Shown piece by piece: positions 1-42,790 of a stretch of DNA of 44,556 bases (position 1 is the first letter of the stretch; each line of letters starts with the position of its first letter). The DNA lies in the IMG/VR virus record IMGVR_UViG_3300027573_000056, positions 1 through 44,556 of that record. The stretch is one strand, 5' to 3'. A program made the translations under genes and the position numbers. Under the pieces are notes generated by a model, which was given only the letters and a program-made list of their open reading frames with translations, made no database searches and had not been told where the DNA came from. This DNA is from a virus.

Positions 1-126
1 GTTGAGCAAATGGATTTCCGCCTGGAGCGAGCCCTCCGGGTATTTCTCGATGAACGCTGCGATGCGTTCCTTGACCTCGATGTAGCCCTTGAGGTCGGAG
101 TTCTGGCCTGTAGCCCTGCTGGTCAT
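1..126 (-). CDS. N-terminal fragment, same family as the right-end gene (partial)
   Basis: The gene starts at ATG 126 and runs off the left edge after 42 codons. The visible peptide ends ERIAAFIEKYPEGSLQAEI. This pattern (YIEV..RI..F..YPEGSL) is the usual N-terminus of a phage protein family whose later part carries ETSAWGRAIAALG, and that later part is seen at the right edge of the window (43965-44556). The two fragments do not join in frame, and both contain the YP(E/D)G segment, so they look like two paralogous copies rather than one gene cut by circularisation. Function is not established; a role near recombination or single-strand DNA handling is possible but unproven. The start overlaps the upstream stop (ATGA). 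Confidence 0.6.
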   Translation of the reverse strand, partial: MTSRATGQNSDLKGYIEVKERIAAFIEKYPEGSLQAEIHLLN

Positions 127-395
127 TTACTTGCCCTCTTGTACGAAAACGCGAGCACGTCGCTGGCTGAGCAGGCCGTGTAGTCACCGTCTGGACTGAG
201 CCACGAGAACCCTAGTGACGACGGACTCGCGTGGTGGTCGGCGAGGTTCCAATACTCGTCCCCGTCTCGCCACGCGAGCTCGTAGGCGTCCACCACGAAC
301 GTCGACTTGCCGTCCACTTGAAGCACTGAGAGCCATTCGGGGTAGCCCCGCAACAGCACCTGTGTCACGCGGTCAATGTCTATCGCGAGACTCAT
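123..395 (-). CDS. Small unknown phage protein, 90 aa
   Basis: No family is recognised. The protein is acidic and aromatic-rich (WLSVLQVDG, YELAWRDGDEYW), has no membrane segment or cysteine pair, and looks like a small globular domain. Its stop overlaps the next start by four bases (ATGA), so it is translationally coupled to the left-edge gene, and it follows the 146-aa gene by two bases. It belongs to the minus-strand operon that begins near 1311. Confidence 0.7.
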   Translation of the reverse strand: MSLAIDIDRVTQVLLRGYPEWLSVLQVDGKSTFVVDAYELAWRDGDEYWNLADHHASPSSLGFSWLSPDGDYTACSASDVLAFSYKRASK

Positions 396-397
396 GG

Positions 398-838
398 CTA
401 CTCCTTCTTGATGAGCGATTCAGACCCGCTCGTCGGCATGTGCGCCCGCTTGAAGATGTCCACCCACGAGGCCCCGGGGTGCTTCTCGACGCTCGCGTGG
501 TCAGCCGAGAGCCAGCCCTGCTTGGCCGCAGCCACCACCACTTCGGGGTGCGACTCAGCCAGCGATACGAGGTCGTAGCCGTGGCGCGTGGAGCCGCGCA
601 AGATCCAGGTCTCGTCAATTTCCCCGTTGTAGAGCAGGGGGTTTCCGCGGTCGTCGGTCTCGAGGTCGTCGCGGTTCAACTCCATATAGCGCTTGAGGAG
701 GTCGCGGGCCTGCTTCATCGCGCGCTCTAGCGGGCGCAACTGCTCTGAGATGTCGTGGATGTCCTTGATCCAGTCCACCGCCTCGGCGCGCTCGCGGAGC
801 TTCTGCTCCTCCATCTCCCGCGCGATATCCTCAACCAC
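398..838 (-). CDS. Helical unknown protein, 146 aa
   Basis: I place the start at GTG 838, because GGAGG stands six bases upstream and the GTG overlaps the stop of the preceding gene; the longer open frame to 868 would run deep into that gene. The first half is charged and helical (MEEQKLRERAEAVDWIK, then RPLERAMKQARDLLKRYME), suggesting a coiled coil. The second half is a mixed domain (WILRGSTRHGYDLVSLAESH). No enzyme motif is visible and no function is assigned. Confidence 0.7.
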   Translation of the reverse strand: MVEDIAREMEEQKLRERAEAVDWIKDIHDISEQLRPLERAMKQARDLLKRYMELNRDDLETDDRGNPLLYNGEIDETWILRGSTRHGYDLVSLAESHPEVVVAAAKQGWLSADHASVEKHPGASWVDIFKRAHMPTSGSESLIKKE

Positions 839-1040
839 GAGCAGCCTCCATAGACGCGCGTAGCGCAATCAGCATTTTCCGCAGGAACACCTCGGCTCCG
901 TGCTCCGCGATCGCCATGCTCGCCGTCGTGATCCACATCTCATCAGTCACGAGGGCCGGATACGGCGGGATGCCCGCGTAGATCGGATTCGCAAACACGT
1001 CCGCGATGTCGTCGGCCGTCCACTTGCTAACCACGGTCAC
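831..1040 (-). CDS. Small conserved-type phage protein, 69 aa
   Basis: It has the pattern NPIYAGIPPYPALVTDEMW, which recurs in small phage proteins of unknown role (I recognise the pattern but know no function). It starts at a GTG that overlaps the stop of the upstream gene and ends inside the start region of the 146-aa gene. The second half is helical and ends with basic residues. Probably cytoplasmic. Confidence 0.7.
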   Translation of the reverse strand: MTVVSKWTADDIADVFANPIYAGIPPYPALVTDEMWITTASMAIAEHGAEVFLRKMLIALRASMEAARG

Positions 1041-1311
1041 GACTCAGCAGCGGCTCCGCACTCACGTCATGGAGGAACACGGGATCTGACTGGGTGTTGT
1101 TCGCCAGGACAAACTGCCGCTGGCGAAGGTCTTCGGCCGCGTCGAGCATGAGCCGGATGCACGCCTCAACGTCGCCCGTGTACTTGAACTGGTTGAGGTT
1201 GAAGCGCCCCGCGTCTGGCCAGTGGCGGTCTAAGGCGTCCAGCAGCGACTCGCTGATGAGCACTGCACGATAGCCCTTGACGGTGCTATCCTCGTCCTTG
1301 GAAGCGGTCAT
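1027..1311 (-). CDS. Unknown protein, 94 aa, first gene of the left operon
   Basis: ATG 1311 is preceded by AAAGGAG at a good distance, so the start is well supported. The protein is a small helical domain (LISESLLDALDRHW, DVEACIRLMLDAAEDLRQRQF) with no recognised motif. It is the first gene of a five-gene minus-strand operon leaving the window at the left. The upstream region 1312-1413 carries a TTCG-loop hairpin and must hold the operon promoter, though I see no convincing consensus boxes. Confidence 0.7.
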   Translation of the reverse strand: MTASKDEDSTVKGYRAVLISESLLDALDRHWPDAGRFNLNQFKYTGDVEACIRLMLDAAEDLRQRQFVLANNTQSDPVFLHDVSAEPLLSRDRG

Positions 1312-1342
1312 TCTCCTTTGATCCTTTCCAGCCCAGCATCTC

Positions 1343-1362
1343 GCCCCTTCGGGGGCGTTTTG
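1343..1362 (+). terminator. TTCG-loop hairpin with T-run
   Basis: A perfect six-pair stem CGCCCC/GGGGCG closes a TTCG tetraloop and is followed by TTTT on the plus strand. This is a textbook intrinsic terminator for plus-strand transcription. On the minus strand the hairpin would lie in the 5' leader of the left operon without a T-run, so it probably blocks opposing transcripts rather than the operon itself. Confidence 0.65.
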
Positions 1363-1413
1363 CTACCCCGGCATACTAGCGCATTTGTAAACTGCGCGCT
1401 ACACTCTCGCACC

Positions 1414-1554
1414 ATGAAGTACCTACTGCTTTGTGCCAAGGACGCGGTCGTGTGGCGGGTCGAGGGCACGCGAGCCCTCACGTTCGCGCGGCGCTTCTGC
1501 TACGCCTACACCGCCCTTACTGGCTTCTTCATCGTCGTGGGCCTGCTGGCATAG
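1414..1554 (+). CDS. Possible small membrane protein, 46 aa
   Basis: An ATG at 1414 opens 46 codons that end in a hydrophobic segment (YTALTGFFIVVGLLA), giving a predicted single-pass or tail-anchored membrane peptide with a basic middle part. No Shine-Dalgarno sequence is evident, so translation is uncertain. It is one of few plus-strand genes here and ends just before a bidirectional hairpin at 1560-1582. Confidence 0.4.
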   Translation: MKYLLLCAKDAVVWRVEGTRALTFARRFCYAYTALTGFFIVVGLLA

Positions 1555-1559
1555 CAAGA

Positions 1560-1582
1560 AGCCCCGCTGGTTAGACGGGGCT
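1560..1582. terminator. Bidirectional hairpin between convergent small genes
   Basis: AGCCCCG and CGGGGCT form a perfect seven-pair stem around a nine-base loop. It lies between the end of the plus-strand 46-aa frame and the end of the minus-strand 40-aa gene. On the minus strand it is followed by TTCTTG, a weak T-rich tail, so it most likely terminates the minus-strand gene. Confidence 0.6.
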
Positions 1583-1620
1583 CCCTCACTGCGGCAGCGC
1601 TTAGCGACGCGACGAGTCTA

Positions 1621-1743
1621 CTACGCGGGCGCGGGCGGGTCTGCGGTAGGGGCTTCCTCTTCGTCCTCGTCCTCGTCGGCTTCCTCAGCTTCCGCCTCGG
1701 CGGCCTCTTCCTCGTCTGGCTCTTCGCGCTGTTCGTTCGTCAT
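1621..1743 (-). CDS. Highly acidic 40-aa protein
   Basis: ATG 1743 follows AGGAAGGAG (1761-1753), so I prefer it over a longer frame without a ribosome site. About half of the residues are Glu or Asp, interrupted by Ala, with a short Pro/Ala tail (ADPPAPA). Such strongly acidic small proteins can mimic DNA charge, but nothing here proves that role. It is expressed from the minus-facing half of the divergent promoter/parS palindrome at 1771-1816, with a very short predicted leader. Confidence 0.6.
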   Translation of the reverse strand: MTNEQREEPDEEEAAEAEAEEADEDEDEEEAPTADPPAPA

Positions 1744-1770
1744 TGGGGCGCGCTCCTTCCTGAGCACCGG

Positions 1771-1816
1771 CATTGTAGCGATACGGGTTTCACGTGAAAC
1801 AATCGCGGCTACAATG
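1771..1816. promoter_or_regulatory. parS: Palindrome with perfect 14-bp parS core and two back-to-back promoters
   Basis: GTTTCACGTGAAAC at 1787-1800 is identical to the 14-bp core of the chromosomal parS site bound by ParB in Streptomyces, Mycobacterium and Bacillus. It is exactly centred inside a second inverted repeat, CATTGTAGC (1771-1779) and GCTACAATG (1808-1816). By symmetry each strand reads TTTCAC, 16 bases, then TACAAT, a fair sigma70-type promoter firing in both directions, with the -35 boxes inside the parS core. Protein binding here would therefore repress both flanking genes. A simple operator for a phage repressor is the alternative explanation. Confidence 0.75.
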
Positions 1817-1929
1817 CGGGCATGGATGAGGTAGGGCGGATACGCTTTCGCTGTGCTTGTGAACGCCGATGCTAAGGGTCGAGTACCGCTGAAGGTTGTG
1901 AGGCGCGTCGCTGAAGAAGGAGCCGAGTG

Positions 1930-2193
1930 ATGGTCACACTGATGCGCGACTCTGGTCAGATGACTGGTCTGCATGATGCCGTTACCACTGGCAACGACGT
2001 ACCTGCGGCAGCACTAACCGATATCAATGGCCACCTAAACATGGTGCTGGTCACCTTCCAAATCGAGCACGTCGAGCGTCACGTCGTCCCGATTCGTGGC
2101 GAAGACTATCCATCACTCGCAGCCATATGGGAGAACGACGAGGATGACGCGCCACCTGCTGAGGCGTCGGGTGAGGCTGCGGGACGCCACTAG
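1930..2193 (+). CDS. Unknown plus-strand protein, 87 aa
   Basis: ATG 1930 has AAGGAG eight bases upstream, so it is preferred to the GTG just before it. The protein is acidic at its C-terminus (NDEDDAPPAE) and has no recognised domain. It is the only well-supported plus-strand gene in the left third and would be transcribed from the rightward promoter in the parS palindrome. A 25-codon GTG frame (1853-1930) ends on its start codon and could be a leader peptide. Its stop TAG lies in a CTAG shared with the stop of the convergent gene at 2190. Confidence 0.65.
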   Translation: MVTLMRDSGQMTGLHDAVTTGNDVPAAALTDINGHLNMVLVTFQIEHVERHVVPIRGEDYPSLAAIWENDEDDAPPAEASGEAAGRH

Positions 2194-2294
2194 CCATACA
2201 GGCAGTCCACCCTCCCGGCCACGTTCAGCAAGGTCGCGACGACGAACAGCAGCAACCCGCCCACCGCGAACCCCCGCCAGAAGTCGAGCGTCAA
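2190..2294 (-). CDS. Small single-pass membrane protein, 34 aa
   Basis: A TTG start at 2294 overlaps the stop of the preceding 28-aa gene. The peptide has one hydrophobic segment (FAVGGLLLFVVATLLNVAG) with a short polar tail. It is the last gene of the lysis cassette. Its stop codon shares the bases CTAG with the stop of the convergent plus-strand gene. A lysis-timing or antiholin role is possible but not shown. Confidence 0.55.
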   Translation of the reverse strand: MTLDFWRGFAVGGLLLFVVATLLNVAGRVDCLYG

Positions 2295-2377
2295 GGCAGG
2301 CGGAACACCCTGCCCATGAACACCGCCACGAGCACGGAGAGCGCCACCCAGCAGGCTAGAAACAGCACTACATTCAT
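2291..2377 (-). CDS. Very small membrane peptide, 28 aa
   Basis: ATG 2377 overlaps the stop of the 72-aa gene as ATGA, which supports coupled translation. Nearly the whole peptide is one transmembrane helix (VVLFLACWVALSVLVAVFMG) with a basic end. The position in the lysis cassette suggests an accessory holin or holin regulator; this rests on context only. Confidence 0.5.
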   Translation of the reverse strand: MNVVLFLACWVALSVLVAVFMGRVFRLP

Positions 2378-2592
2378 GTCCTTGGTACTCCCGGTGGCGT
2401 CCAGGGGAAGCGGCTCCAGTCCTCGAGCGCCTTCAACCTTGCGGTCAACGCATCTATCCGCGCCCGCGCTACGGGGTCTGTGGCAGCCTCAGCGGTCTCC
2501 GGTGTAGAGACCACCGCACCACCCGCTAGCCCAGCAGCGATCAAGGCGATGCGACGTAGCGCGTGACGGCGAGGAGCTGATGTGGAGGTCAC
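2374..2592 (-). CDS. Secreted/anchored small protein with signal peptide, 72 aa
   Basis: The N-terminus has clustered arginines (PRRHALRRIALI), a hydrophobic stretch (IAAGLAGGAVV) and a likely signal-peptidase site around AEA-A near residue 35, so it resembles a Tat-like or Sec export signal. The mature part is a short helix (ARIDALTARLKALEDW). In a lysis cassette this could be a spanin-like or envelope-interacting component, but there is no lipobox cysteine. Starts and stops overlap both neighbours. Confidence 0.6.
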   Translation of the reverse strand: MTSTSAPRRHALRRIALIAAGLAGGAVVSTPETAEAATDPVARARIDALTARLKALEDWSRFPWTPPGVPRT

Positions 2593-2870
2593 GGGGCTGG
2601 CGCTGGTGTCTCTGCTGGCGGTGCAGGAGCGGTTACGACCACCGTGGGCGTGTTCGTCCCCATGGCCGGGCTGGGCACGTCGTCAGGGAGCAGCGCGCCC
2701 AGCAGCGGACGGGCAATGGCCGCATAGACGCCGAGGGCAGCCGCTACCAACTCGGCATCTGCACCGAGCCGCGCCATCACGAGCCCGATCAGGATGCCAA
2801 CCGGGCCGAGGATGGCCCCCCATTGCGTCTCGGCTTTCCCGTTGACCGTGTACGTCGGAAGCGATGGCAT
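2589..2870 (-). CDS. Putative holin, 93 aa
   Basis: I choose ATG 2870 because AGGAGG stands just upstream; a longer frame to 2888 lacks one. Two hydrophobic segments (WGAILGPVGILIGLVMARL and LVAAALGVYAAIARPLLGALL) are separated by a short acidic turn, followed by a Pro/Ala/Thr-rich tail. Size, two-helix topology and a position just downstream of the endolysin fit a class II holin, which forms inner-membrane holes at lysis. Sequence alone does not distinguish holin from antiholin. Confidence 0.6.
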   Translation of the reverse strand: MPSLPTYTVNGKAETQWGAILGPVGILIGLVMARLGADAELVAAALGVYAAIARPLLGALLPDDVPSPAMGTNTPTVVVTAPAPPAETPAPAP

Positions 2871-2880
2871 TGCAGTCCTC

Positions 2881-3027
2881 CTACTCAATAGCCACGATCA
2901 GCCGCTCCGCCATGTGCGCGAGCGCAAAGAACGCGAGCCCGATCGCGATCCAGTTGAAACGTGGCAGCAGCGCCAGCGCCGCCAGTACGAAACACACAAT
3001 GGCAATGACGATCAGCGCGACTTCCAT
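2881..3027 (-). CDS. Two-helix small membrane protein, 48 aa
   Basis: ATG 3027 is immediately adjacent to the endolysin stop at 3028. The protein has two hydrophobic helices (ALIVIAIVCFVLAALALL and WIAIGLAFFALAHMAERLIV) with a short PRF turn. It lies between the endolysin and the putative holin and is a second candidate holin or antiholin. It is short but clearly spaced as part of the cassette. Confidence 0.6.
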   Translation of the reverse strand: MEVALIVIAIVCFVLAALALLPRFNWIAIGLAFFALAHMAERLIVAIE

Positions 3028-3702
3028 CTAGCCCTCCCATGTCTTTAGCACCTCGAAGCGATAGCGGTGGATGTAGGTCTGCGGGTCGTAGCCCTCGTAT
3101 TCCGTGCCCACGTTTGGGCCGATTGGCTCACCGTCCCAGTGCTGAGCGATATCTAATTGGTACTCGAACTTGCCGGTGAGGGCGTTCCAGCCGCGGTACG
3201 AGAACGCGACGTTGGGGCCAACAGGGATGGCTGGTGGGAAGTAGCGCTCCCACGGCACGCGCCCCGATGGGCAGAGCGTGTTGTGTACCTCGCGATGCTC
3301 AAAGAGCGTCTGGCCTGCCGGGTTGCGCGAGAGCGTGAAGCCGCCCTGCTCCGCTATCCACTGCGAGAGCGCCACACTCGATGCTACCTGAGCCTCGGTG
3401 AACGGCTCGCTGAGGTTGGAAGGTGGCCCACCCTCGTGCTCGATGCCCACCAGGCGCTCGTTGTTGGCCTTCGCGCCTGAGTGCCAGCATGAGGCATTGA
3501 GCGGGTAGTGCTGGTAGACCACGCCGTCCTTCGCGATCGAGAACTGCCACGATGCGGCATTAGGGTTGTCGAGCACCGTCCACGCGCCCATGAGCGAGCC
3601 CTGCATCGAATGACAGATGATGCCGTTGACGGCGTTCTCAGCCGGCCAGAACTTGCCTTCCGGCCCCGGTCGCTGAATCGCGGGCGCGTAGAACAGTTCC
3701 AT
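3028..3702 (-). CDS. Endolysin: N-acetylmuramoyl-L-alanine amidase (Amidase_2 type)
   Basis: It cleaves the bond between muramic acid and the stem peptide in the cell wall. The catalytic domain spans about residues 20-150. Likely zinc ligands are H31 (in IICHSMQG), H136 (in EHREV) and C144 (in TLCPSG); the H-C spacing of eight matches the T7 lysozyme type. A C-terminal segment of about 70 residues (GWNALTGKFEYQLDIAQHW) may bind the wall. There is no signal peptide, so release depends on a holin, and holin candidates follow directly. The start overlaps the upstream stop. Confidence 0.9.
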   Translation of the reverse strand: MELFYAPAIQRPGPEGKFWPAENAVNGIICHSMQGSLMGAWTVLDNPNAASWQFSIAKDGVVYQHYPLNASCWHSGAKANNERLVGIEHEGGPPSNLSEPFTEAQVASSVALSQWIAEQGGFTLSRNPAGQTLFEHREVHNTLCPSGRVPWERYFPPAIPVGPNVAFSYRGWNALTGKFEYQLDIAQHWDGEPIGPNVGTEYEGYDPQTYIHRYRFEVLKTWEG

Positions 3703-4100
3703 CAGCCGTCACCTCCGTCTAAAGGGCGCGCTGCCTCATGTTCTGTGAACCGCCGCGCGAGGTCAGCCACGCCGTTGTCGAGCGATTGGAGGCGCGCCGA
3801 GTGCTCGTCAATCGTGGACTGGTGGCCCTGCACGAGTCCGCTTAGGACAGCACCTTCGTCGCGGCTCGCCCTGATCTGCGCCAAGACATCGGCCTCGATG
3901 ATGCGGGTGAGTTCCTGAATCCCATCGGCAATCTGAGGCGCGGCTGCGATCGCCTTGGCGACTGGCACCAGTAGCAGCCGCCACACGATGTTACGCAGGA
4001 TGTACCCCGCTCCCGCTGCGCCGGCCGCGATCACGGCCAGGTCAACGAGCCAGTGGCCCTCGCTGATCCCGTCGACCACCTCGAAGATTCCTAGGAACAT
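3702..4100 (-). CDS. Membrane protein with coiled coil, holin-like, 132 aa
   Basis: One or two hydrophobic segments lie near the N-terminus (VDLAVIAAGAAGAGYILRNIVW, in part) followed by a long helical region (IQELTRIIEADVLAQIR, STIDEHSARLQSLDNGVADLARR) that should form a coiled coil in the cytoplasm. This layout resembles small phage proteins such as DUF2746, often encoded beside the endolysin. Its stop overlaps the endolysin start, so the two are coupled. A lysis role is inferred from context. Confidence 0.6.
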   Translation of the reverse strand: MFLGIFEVVDGISEGHWLVDLAVIAAGAAGAGYILRNIVWRLLLVPVAKAIAAAPQIADGIQELTRIIEADVLAQIRASRDEGAVLSGLVQGHQSTIDEHSARLQSLDNGVADLARRFTEHEAARPLDGGDG

Positions 4101-4112
4101 AACGCGCCTTCG

Positions 4113-4340
4113 TCAGTCATTTGCGACCGTTTCATGTACGTCATGCGGCCCGCCGCCACCGGGTCGCCATCCGACCTCGACCCATGCGCCCTCGTACCAG
4201 TGCTTGAGCTGGTGCGGCTCCACGGACTCGTCGTACCAGAGCACCGCCCACTGCGGAGGCGGCCTGTGGCCGGCGTAGATCGTCACTGGCACACGGTAGG
4301 AATCTGGTTCTGGCTGCTGCGGTGTTGGCTCTAGCGTCAC
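4113..4340 (-). CDS. Unknown small protein, 75 aa
   Basis: GTG 4340 overlaps the stop of the upstream structural gene and is preceded by GGTGGAG; the longer open frame upstream is a shadow of that gene. The sequence is aromatic and Pro-rich (QWAVLWYDESVEP, HWYEGAWVEVGWRPGGGGP), resembling small beta-rich, sugar-binding or tail-decorating domains. It separates the appendage genes from the lysis cassette. No family is recognised. Confidence 0.6.
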   Translation of the reverse strand: MTLEPTPQQPEPDSYRVPVTIYAGHRPPPQWAVLWYDESVEPHQLKHWYEGAWVEVGWRPGGGGPHDVHETVAND

Positions 4341-31046: not shown

Positions 31047-32443
31047 ACGGCAATCCTCGCGAGCGGCTTCCCTGCGAGTGACAACTTCGGTAACGCGGGC
31101 CCAGGATCGTGCAGCATCGCCATGATCTCCATGACCGCGTATCTCCTCGCGTCCTGCGCGTCCGCGTGGTGGTCGACGGGCGTCTTGGTCGCGTACCGCG
31201 TCTTGTCGTTTGGGTCGACCGCATCCCGCCACCGGTAGCCGGGAAACTCCGCGATAGAGTTAACACACGACGGGTCGATAGTCAGACGGTCGTTCTCTAA
31301 GAGCGTGGCCGTGAGGTTGAAGCCGTCCTTGCGCGAGTTGTTGGCCGCGTGCGCGGGCAGCCCGAACTGGCTCACGAGCGTAGCTGTGACTGTCGCCTGT
31401 TCGGGTGGACACTCGATCGCGTCGCAGTTGTAGTGGCTCAGGAACCCCCCGATTTCTTCGACGGGTACTGGGCCACGGCGATAAAACTCCCCGTATTGGT
31501 GGACGTGGTGATTTGCATCGAGACCGAGGATGACCACTGCCGTAGGGTCGCCCCCACCAAGGTCGACACCGGCAACGATGCGCCTGCATTGAACCAAGGG
31601 CACTTTCTCACTTCGGACATGCTTCGCCTCATTCCACATCGGGTACACGAGCCCGCTTCTCGCTACGAACGCCTGCGCGTCGGTGTCGGCATAGTAGGCA
31701 TCGAACTCCTCGGGCAGCCCTTCGTACGCCTGCCGCTCACGCTCCAGCCATGCCCGGTCGCGCCCTGGTCGCACGCTCCACGGGATGAACCGCGCCGTGT
31801 AGCCGGTCTCACCGCGCTTTGAGGCCCAGTAGACCAGCGGGAACCAGCCGTTAGGGCCTAAGCCTGGGTCTGCCGTGGAGAGCGCTATGAACTGCCCGCC
31901 AGCGGAAATCGTGGGGCGGATGGCGGCGTAGTTCTGCGCCGCGTAGGGGTGGAAGTGGGCCTCGTCCATGATCACGACCTGGAACGTGAAGGACACGCCC
32001 GCGTCAGGCGTCGATGGGAACGCCATCACCTTGCCACCTGACGGATACGTGATGTCGTCCACCCGGATCGTGGCCCCCACCTGCATCCACTCTGGCAGAT
32101 GCGTCTCCACGAACGCGGTCTTGGCTAAGAGTTCTCTCGCCTCGAGTTGGCCCTTGGAGATGAGCGCCACCATCGCCCCGTTACGGGCCTTCCAGTCGGC
32201 ATAGGCCGCCACCAGCCACGAGTAGCCCAACTGCCTGTCCTTGAGGTCGATCTCCGAGGCCCCAGAGGCCCACGCCTGAGCCTGCTCGATGAGGTACGGC
32301 CACGGCTGCCACTTGGTCACCACCGGGTTCAGCGGGTCGTCTGAGCGGAGCTTCACGAAGTCGAGGAAGTCGATGAAGTTGCGCCGGCACAACTCCTCGG
32401 TCGCGAGCATCGCGAAGGCACGCTCCTTGGTGAGCGTGGTCAC
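31043..32443 (-). CDS. terL: Terminase large subunit, 466 aa
   Basis: This is the DNA-packaging motor and headful or cos nuclease. The N-terminal ATPase has a Walker A-like region (KDRQLGYSW at about 68-76, a variant without the usual GKT), adenine-contact residues upstream (KWQPWPYLIEQ) and Walker B VVIMDE at about 155-160. The nuclease domain begins near 288 with AGVDLGGGDPTAV (acidic residue D291) and ends with ADAQDARRYAV. Length is normal. The GTG start overlaps the preceding gene by four bases. The TerS-like gene lies upstream, separated by one unusual DNA-binding-like gene. Confidence 0.9.
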   Translation of the reverse strand: MTTLTKERAFAMLATEELCRRNFIDFLDFVKLRSDDPLNPVVTKWQPWPYLIEQAQAWASGASEIDLKDRQLGYSWLVAAYADWKARNGAMVALISKGQLEARELLAKTAFVETHLPEWMQVGATIRVDDITYPSGGKVMAFPSTPDAGVSFTFQVVIMDEAHFHPYAAQNYAAIRPTISAGGQFIALSTADPGLGPNGWFPLVYWASKRGETGYTARFIPWSVRPGRDRAWLERERQAYEGLPEEFDAYYADTDAQAFVARSGLVYPMWNEAKHVRSEKVPLVQCRRIVAGVDLGGGDPTAVVILGLDANHHVHQYGEFYRRGPVPVEEIGGFLSHYNCDAIECPPEQATVTATLVSQFGLPAHAANNSRKDGFNLTATLLENDRLTIDPSCVNSIAEFPGYRWRDAVDPNDKTRYATKTPVDHHADAQDARRYAVMEIMAMLHDPGPALPKLSLAGKPLARIAV

Positions 32444-33036
32444 TCGTTGAACCGCTCACGCACGATGCCATCGTCGTCGCCGGACTCAACGCCTGAGCCG
32501 CCTCGCAACACCTCGAAGCGCGCACCCACTGCCCCGACGCGTTGACAGCCCTTACAGCGCAGGATCATCGCTTCGTCGTCGTAAGGCTCGAAGTCGATGG
32601 CCGAACCACCCGCGAAGGGCGTACGCGTGATCGAGACATGCTCCACAGCCTCGTTCAGCGAGTGCCCCTGCTCCACGAGCTCACCGACTTCGGCCTGCGC
32701 CTCTGGTGACTTGAGCGCCTTCACCTGACGGTGTGTGATTTGCTTCACACCTGTCTCACCGTGAGACACCCCTACAAGCTGTAGGGTCACGTTCATCTGG
32801 TCAATGAGCCGGTAAGCGTGGCCGCGTGACTTCGAGAACTCGGCCATCACGTAGCGAGCCATGCTCGTATAGCCGAGCGCAGCCCAGCCCTCGCGTTCCT
32901 CGACCTCACGCAGCCGCACCATGCCGGCGTCCCATGTGTCCTGTGCGTCCTCGAACTGGTTGCGGATGGCGTCGGTCTCTGCCCGCGCCTCGGCCTCGCT
33001 CATCACCACCACGGCCTGTACTGAGAGCTCGTTCAC
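32440..33036 (-). CDS. DNA-binding-like protein between terminase subunits, 198 aa
   Basis: The N-terminal half is helical and contains an HTH-like segment (GYTSMARYVMAEFSKSRGHAYRLIDQM) of a type seen in ParB-like or phage DNA-binding proteins, followed by ITHRQVKALKSPEAQAEVGELVE, a common helix pattern in plasmid and phage DNA-binding proteins. The C-terminus has two cysteines (LRCKGCQRVG). It may aid packaging-site recognition or act as a DNA-segregation-type protein. GTG 33036 overlaps the TerS stop. ParB identity is not established, and no ParA partner is seen. Confidence 0.5.
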   Translation of the reverse strand: MNELSVQAVVVMSEAEARAETDAIRNQFEDAQDTWDAGMVRLREVEEREGWAALGYTSMARYVMAEFSKSRGHAYRLIDQMNVTLQLVGVSHGETGVKQITHRQVKALKSPEAQAEVGELVEQGHSLNEAVEHVSITRTPFAGGSAIDFEPYDDEAMILRCKGCQRVGAVGARFEVLRGGSGVESGDDDGIVRERFNE

Positions 33037-41475: not shown

Positions 41476-41699
41476 CAGTCGCCCACCAGCACTGGCTCGA
41501 AGTCGCATAGTGGCAAGCTGCCGTACACGACTGCGTACATGGTGTTAGGCCCCATATGGCGCACGTTGATGCGGGCGTACCCGCAACGGTGGCACGGGTC
41601 GAAGTCGGACAGATGCACCGCGTACCACCGCCGAGCGCCGCGATTCGAATGATGCAGCGCCTTCCACACCGTATCTGCGTTATGCAAGACCTCAGCCAT
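41475..41699 (-). CDS. Small zinc-knuckle protein, 74 aa
   Basis: ATG 41699 shares its A with the stop of the 26-codon frame (TGATG). The core DPCHRCGYARINVRHM is a single CxxC with a following His. The rest is beta-rich (MYAVVYGSLPLCDFEPVLVG). No family is recognised. Confidence 0.6.
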   Translation of the reverse strand: MAEVLHNADTVWKALHHSNRGARRWYAVHLSDFDPCHRCGYARINVRHMGPNTMYAVVYGSLPLCDFEPVLVGD

Positions 41700-41779
41700 C
41701 ACCACGGCCACCTCTCCCGCAGTCGCTCAAAGAAGCCCCGCGCCGGCTCCACTGGCAAGTTCCACGTATGCCCGCTCAA
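41699..41779 (-). CDS. Possible leader-like small peptide, 26 aa
   Basis: TTG 41779 overlaps the XRE repressor stop, and the frame ends exactly at the next start. The peptide is basic and aromatic (NLPVEPARGFFERLRERWPW). The double overlap is the main support; no ribosome site is clear. It may simply couple translation between neighbours. Confidence 0.35.
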   Translation of the reverse strand: MSGHTWNLPVEPARGFFERLRERWPW

Positions 41780-42033
41780 CGGGATGCGGTCCTGGATGGC
41801 TTGGAAGTCGGCGGTGCGTTGGTCGGGAGCAAAGCCTCCAGCGTCACGCCAAGGGCGTCTGCTAGCCGTCGCAACGACTGGACGTGCGGCTGGTCTCTGC
41901 CGGTCTCGTACTTCCATATTTGCTGGCGGCTTAGCCCGGCGAGCTCTGCGAGTTGCGCCATGCTGAGATCCCGCCGCTGCCTCAACTGGCGTATCCGCTC
42001 CCCCAGCGCCTTCGCCTGATTCACTACCGCCAT
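41776..42033 (-). CDS. XRE/HTH_3-family repressor-like protein, 85 aa
   Basis: A classic Cro/C1-type helix-turn-helix: LGERIRQLRQRRDLSMAQLA, then ELAGLSRQQIWKYETG (recognition helix) and LRRLADALGVTLEALL. GGGGAGG stands six bases before ATG 42033. The C-terminal tail is short and polar (NAPPTSKPSRTASR), so there is no cleavage or oligomer domain as in lambda CI. It can repress early phage promoters, for example the one at 34566-34595. It lies inside an operon, not next to a divergent promoter. Confidence 0.8.
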   Translation of the reverse strand: MAVVNQAKALGERIRQLRQRRDLSMAQLAELAGLSRQQIWKYETGRDQPHVQSLRRLADALGVTLEALLPTNAPPTSKPSRTASR

Positions 42034-42052
42034 CCATTGCCTCCCCCTGTCC

Positions 42053-42301
42053 TCATGCCTGAATGCTGTACTCGACGCCAGCCGCGATCAGCACGGCGGC
42101 CTCGAAGTCGTCCAGCCACGGCCCGCCTCGATGGTCACCTTCGTCCTTTGGTTTCAGCCACGATCGCCACTGCAGGGGCCGTGCCTCATCAACAAACAAC
42201 GTCATCGCGACGACACGCTGCTCCTTCGCCGCTGCACGGATCGCGTCCTCGTGTGATGGCTCTAATGCGAGAGCGAGCTGCCCCTCTACCCCTCCAGCCA
42301 T
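42053..42301 (-). CDS. Small acidic protein, 82 aa
   Basis: I choose ATG 42301 (GGGAG eight bases upstream). The sequence is helical in the first third (LALALEPSHEDAIRAAAKEQ), then a beta core (VVAMTLFVDEARPLQWRSWL) and an acidic end. It is not a recognised family. Part of the replication-regulation operon. Confidence 0.55.
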   Translation of the reverse strand: MAGGVEGQLALALEPSHEDAIRAAAKEQRVVAMTLFVDEARPLQWRSWLKPKDEGDHRGGPWLDDFEAAVLIAAGVEYSIQA

Positions 42302-42313
42302 TTCACTCACTCC

Positions 42314-42790
42314 CTAGGGCTTTAGGTTCGCGCGGATCCACGCGAGCATCCGTGTGTATCGCTCCTCTGGCGTGAAGTGGCCGAGTATGTCGTCGTTGCG
42401 CTCGATGAGGTTCCAAGCGAGCGTAAACGCTAGCCCTAGGTGGTTTTCTGCCCAGCGCGCCTGCTCGTCCGCGCTCGTCTCCACCTCGTCTCGCCAGTCG
42501 CTCGTGTCGTTGTACTCAGGCGGGACGTGGCGGGCCTCGCCCTTCCAGATGGCATACGCGCCAAGCACGCACGCTTCCACGTCACCATCGTCCTCGCCTA
42601 CGGAGCAGAACAGGTCACGGGCGAGCCGTGGCTTCGGCAGCGCCAGCATCGCCGCTTCTAGTTCACGTAGCACCTTCTGGCCGCGCTTACTCTCGACGGT
42701 CGCGCGCGAGTTGCGTTCCCAGCGTCCGCTTGCGAGCAGCCCATACACGTCGTCGTAACCGTCGTATGCAGCACCTGTAACCCTACTCAC
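42314..42790 (-). CDS. Unknown helical protein, 158 aa
   Basis: A helical protein with conserved aromatics (VTGAAYDGYDDVYGLLASGRW, in part; RLARDLFCSVGEDDGDVEACV; LGLAFTLAWNLIERNDD). It is coupled to the replication-initiator-like gene by a four-base overlap, which suggests a function in early replication or regulation. No family is known. Confidence 0.6.
   Translation of the reverse strand: MSRVTGAAYDGYDDVYGLLASGRWERNSRATVESKRGQKVLRELEAAMLALPKPRLARDLFCSVGEDDGDVEACVLGAYAIWKGEARHVPPEYNDTSDWRDEVETSADEQARWAENHLGLAFTLAWNLIERNDDILGHFTPEERYTRMLAWIRANLKP

Follow-up and report, generated by a model that had tools for sequence, protein, structure and literature searches.

An exact copy of the 14-bp parS core, GTTTCACGTGAAAC, is located at positions 1787-1800 of the window, the whole stretch of 44,556 nucleotides analysed here, which is a virus record of the linear class in IMG/VR. 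As the original prediction had stated, the core (a feature without strand) is perfect and falls in an intergenic gap between two small flanking genes, the ORFs of which are divergently oriented. The leftward ORF (1621-1743, minus strand) translates into a tiny and extremely acidic product of 40 aa (MTNEQREEPDEEEAAEAEAEEADEDEDEEEAPTADPPAPA) and has a Shine-Dalgarno-like sequence, AGGAAGGAG; it lies directly downstream of a left -10-like element, from which its transcription would start. On the plus strand, a 17-aa ORF (1822-1875) and an 88-aa ORF (1927-2193) appear to be the first and second genes of a rightward unit, and the latter gave no match in PHROGs. The ATG at 1822 is placed 7 nt beyond the right -10-like element, and a leaderless transcript is therefore predicted.

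Genes recognised elsewhere in the window encode a terminase, a lytic-transglycosylase virion protein, an amidase-type endolysin and an O-like replication initiator. The early region also contains an XRE/HTH_3 (Cro/CI-like) regulator gene on the minus strand (41776-42033; PF01381, E 1.1e-16; PHROGs transcription regulators, E 3.5e-16), which was absent from the earlier description and points to a possible temperate ancestry even though the search for an integrase gave no match. Domain models of ParB (PF02195) and ParA (PF13614) gave no match in the contig, which may be incomplete, in line with the earlier claim that neither ParA nor a clear ParB is present. The pair of PF02195 and PF13614 genes that marks a phage-encoded ParABS system is thus missing from the contig, which has instead the arrangement of a phi29-type orphan, a host-type parS without phage ParAB. 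The 198-aa protein encoded between TerS and TerL (32440-33036) was considered as a ParB and rejected, showing no Pfam match and only a weak match to a PHROG of unknown function. Neither a tyrosine integrase nor a PF00239 resolvase/serine recombinase was found in the contig. A WhiB-like PHROG motif and Gordonia phage matches for one protein hint at an actinobacterial host, towards which we lean on the basis of these similarities; the major capsid protein (MCP) bears a distant likeness to that of Pelagibacter phages.

The core is the sole match to GTTTCACGTGAAAC in the 44,556 bases, even when up to three mismatches are allowed, and its half-site, GTTTCAC/GTGAAAC, has no other occurrence in the window. 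This bears out the earlier statement that there is no second copy, and the mismatch scan against chance that the original prediction had called for gave this single site where about 1e-4 copies were expected (5.6e-5 to 9.4e-5 exact copies by Markov models of order 0-2 on the whole window). The site has the exact palindromic core of chromosomal-type parS and, together with its flanks, matches 15 of the 16 bases of TGTTTCACGTGAAACA, the parS consensus employed in PMC10197239; the right flank A fits, and G replaces T on the left. This left flank reads GGG instead of the preferred T, which counts against a reading based on host ParB. Palindromy is ordinary here, given that the window holds four perfect palindromes of at least 14 bp compared with 2-10 in simulated sequence, and that the coaxial symmetry of 17/25 is the normal maximum in simulated or shuffled sequence. 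Palindromy was therefore rejected as evidence by itself, being no more than shuffled sequence yields; the improbable feature is the identity with parS.

The arms of the predicted coaxial inverted repeat, CATTGTAGC (1771-1779) and GCTACAATG (1808-1816), are present and constitute the only two exact copies of GCTACAATG in the window. The left arm, GCATTGTAGC (1770-1779), reads GCTACAATGC on the minus strand with a -10-like TACAAT at 1777-1772, and a sequence scan placed the right arm, GCTACAATGC, at 1808-1817 on the plus strand with TACAAT at 1810-1815. The core is exactly central between these mirrored elements, at 9 bp from each. Of the divergent-promoter palindrome described earlier, the arms and the core thus exist, whereas the overall palindromy stays at the level of shuffled sequence. 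The sequence GCTANNATGC occurs three times in the 44.5 kb (1380-, 1779- and 1808+), and because all copies fall inside 1380-1817, the arms look like a local -10-type element and not like a part of parS. A second divergent pair of -10-like sequences, TAGTAT on the minus strand and TACACT on the plus strand (1400-1405), lies at 1369-1405 and has GCTANN-type sequence in common with the arms; it is positioned upstream of the ORFs at 1027-1311 (minus) and 1414-1554 (plus), with neither parS nor TTTCAC.

The original prediction had also described promoters with their -35 box inside the core. TTTCAC-16-TACAAT was indeed found on both strands, but the -35 assignment is unsupported: TTTCAC shares 2 of the 6 bases of the consensus TTGACA, and a sigma-70-type promoter consensus scan of 1-4200, with a -35 near TTGACA at 16-18 bp from the -10, returned none. 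Nor is TTTCAC a shared -35, because the element at 1380 (minus) and its partner TACACT lack it. The idea that parS serves as a common -35 region of phage promoters was rejected, as TANNNT at that offset was seen in 0 of 230 flanks among the IMG/VR matches listed. In the other viral contigs searched, no real counterpart of parS with TACAAT at the spacing of the window was found; two IMG/VR matches to this arrangement were unrelated, of low or mid GC, and judged to be chance. The mirrored -10 arrangement, seen in the window alone among the contigs examined, is the less certain part of the reading.

A locus covering the parS site was not found among viral and genome contigs when the endolysin, portal, TerL, the 1027-1311 protein and MCP were used as queries, and none of the MCP relatives, with 77-79% or 49% identity, extends to the site. 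A DNA search of 1300-2300 against named phages gave matches limited to the low-complexity acidic ORF. That the parS end is without detectable relatives in the sequences searched counts against the host-ParB reading.

A search of IMG/VR with the bare 14-mer returned at least 120 stretches, from which flank bases were counted in 115 unrelated contigs with one site each. Among these listed matches, the outward flank bases are A at +1 (74%), T at +2 (46%) and T at +3 (44%), and flat beyond, compared with controls in which GTGAAAC, TGAAAC or GAAAC at other places in the 115 contigs is followed by A in 25-30%. Moreover, 52 of 113 sites among the matches listed lie outside ORFs of at least 100 aa, against 17.9 expected. 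The parS-like outer bases and the excess outside ORFs argue that many of the copies in viral contigs are selected parS sites, a conclusion that holds for the set, since some IMG/VR contigs may be mis-binned bacterial DNA. Among 48 contigs (47 of at least 10 kb among the matches listed, plus the window), a ParB fold was detected in 5 and ParA not once.

The parS 20-mer AATGTTTCACGTGAAACATT matched 212 named phage records, which is not a count of lineages because the records are redundant and 35 Listeria entries were seen without annotation, whereas three scrambled palindromes of the same base composition matched none. The 212 records include phages of Microbacterium, Gordonia, Arthrobacter, Bacillus, Lactobacillus and Roseobacter. 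When 16 named phages were examined whole, a ParB fold was found in four and ParA in none. Exact cores number seven in Arthrobacter phage Emotion (OQ709216.1; 4448, 6605, 18001, 19680, 20042, 25114 and 44985) and six in Arthrobacter phage JasmineDragon (PP978861.1; 4438, 4974, 17359, 19134, 25227 and 43119), neither of which gave a ParB or ParA domain match. Where they can be aligned, the two genomes share about 80% identity, and the three Emotion sites that fall in such stretches coincide with exact copies in JasmineDragon; survival of a core without selection at 80% identity would be 0.8^14, about 4%. The cores of both phages are spread genome-wide, for the most part between genes or at the ends of genes, and one in each is upstream of a recombination directionality factor gene. 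Together, these data suggest that many unrelated phages carry an orphan host-type parS. The phi29-like B103 and Herelleviridae such as Lpa804 are carriers usually considered lytic.

Several further settings of the core were observed. In six Microbacterium phages it is inside a variable stretch of one gene, annotated as HTH or 'DNA binding protein', and always in the VSRET frame, although the stretch aligns poorly between phages. Gordonia phage Woes has intergenic cores at 1082 and 1503, which follow consecutive minus-strand genes. Each is embedded in a longer perfect palindrome that continues the symmetry on either side, by 11 and 8 bases respectively; these sites are possibly combined terminators and parS. 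The 'bajarodino' records PQ006097.1, PQ006135.1, PQ006178.1 and related ones, of about 6 kb and from rodent samples, have several near-perfect parS 20-mers each, and in some a Zonula-occludens-toxin-like annotation lies beneath the match, as in filamentous phages. A general survey of phage-borne host-type parS was not found in a full-text literature search, the coverage of which is thin for subscription papers.

Among known systems, the closest likeness is to phi29, for which host Spo0J (ParB) plays a part in the entrapment of the phage genome within the spore (Meijer 2005, as recounted in PMC9437464). That phage lacks ParAB of its own and makes use of host ParB, as would the phage of the window, which differs in being GC-rich. 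The phi29-like B103 contains one exact core and one copy with one mismatch, and no ParB or ParA domain; its exact copy is inside gene 15, whereas that of the window is between two divergent -10 elements. In SGI1, parS mimics bind ParB of the IncC helper plasmid (PMC10954446), so that parS-like sites of a mobile element likewise borrow ParAB of another replicon, but the phage of the window would use ParB of the host chromosome instead of a helper plasmid. RedRock and related actinobacteriophages also have centromere sites on phage DNA, which are however arrays of 8-bp repeats served by their own ParA/ParB (PMC7157519), unlike the chromosomal 14-mer of the window. The parS3 and parS4 sites of P. 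aeruginosa are similarly intergenic, with ParB binding lowering the expression of adjacent genes, but are chromosomal and are not known to have mirrored -10 elements alongside.

Combining the locus with these comparisons, we consider an orphan host-type parS fairly likely here, one that host ParB would bind and from which it would cover two divergent -10 elements, and a little more confidence can be placed in the broader proposal that host ParB binds here and matters to the phage. We infer binding, clamping, repression and DNA positioning as follows. On entry, chromosomal ParB of the host would bind the 14-bp core at 1787-1800, form a CTP-dependent clamp and slide to the flanks, as ParB is known to load at parS, close with CTP and slide (PMC12704722). 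As the core is 9 bp from each -10-like element, bound ParB would occupy both divergent start sites and the stretch upstream of each, and this cover may lower both transcripts. Through the same ParB patch, the phage DNA could become tethered to ParA/SMC of the host and be placed or partitioned along with the nucleoid, a mechanism put forward for phi29 and Spo0J. Given ParB binding, local repression and genome positioning appear about equally likely and may coexist. ParB represses the genes adjacent to the intergenic, promoter-proximal parS3 and parS4 of P. aeruginosa, while in B. subtilis the loss of Spo0J left the expression of parS-adjacent genes unchanged (PMC7022226), so repression by ParB is not automatic. 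In the window, it also counts against repression that the -10-like sequences are without a recognisable -35. With a single site, compatibility with ParB of the host is at most presumptive, and the existence of a phage XRE regulator speaks against the host-ParB reading. As originally predicted, recruitment of host ParB explains the site best, since parS is common in phages and almost all of its carriers are without ParA.

A tentative alternative, clearly less probable than the combined reading, is that parS acts in partition only, segregating an extrachromosomal prophage via host ParA/ParB, with the closeness to promoters incidental. The low-copy prophage plasmid of the original prediction finds little or no support: the contig yielded no integrase, resolvase/serine recombinase or ParA, nothing in the window was recognised as the replication or maintenance module of a known phage-plasmid, and parS also occurs in phages usually considered lytic (B103, Herelleviridae such as Lpa804). 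The exactly central position of the core between two -10 elements is likewise not expected from partition only. The alternative gains from the XRE repressor-type gene, which exists even though no integrase or resolvase was found in the contig, and from the ability of the SGI1 parS mimics to stabilise a parasite (PMC10954446).

It is unlikely that the palindrome is instead an operator of a phage repressor, such as the XRE protein (41776-42033), with a coincidental match to parS. Such a regulator is encoded in the window, and a palindrome between mirrored -10-like elements is in the usual operator position. The repeated or similar half-sites of an XRE operator, also near the repressor gene, were however not seen: GTTTCAC is found nowhere else, the surroundings of the XRE gene included, no inverted repeat with arms of at least 7 is present at 41650-42400 around that gene, and the arms are unique in the window too. 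Both the unique half-site and the missing inverted repeats around that gene weaken the operator explanation, and a random 14-bp palindrome would be exactly parS in about 1 in 16,000 cases (4^7 half-sites). A functionless chance occurrence is the least probable explanation and quite improbable, for although any striking motif was sought (a look-elsewhere effect) and palindromes of 14 bp are in themselves no rarity in the window, the expectation of about 1e-4 copies, the intergenic position and the strong population signal for parS in phages stand against it.

The orphan host-type parS in the window is thus likely to be real, and the phage probably borrows host ParB. Exploitation of host ParB has already been documented for phi29, and the present comparisons suggest that an orphan parS of the host type occurs commonly in unrelated phages. 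The carriers include cultivable actinobacterial phages, so that positioning, partition or silencing of phage DNA by host ParB is directly testable. What the window contributes is an arrangement in which one site is possibly parS and operator at once. It is conceivable, if rather speculative, that host ParB acts as a transcription regulator of the phage, with early gene expression following the level and state of ParB in the infected cell and the same site attaching the genome to the segregation machinery. If this is true, orphan host-type parS would represent a widespread and mostly unrecognised phage strategy.
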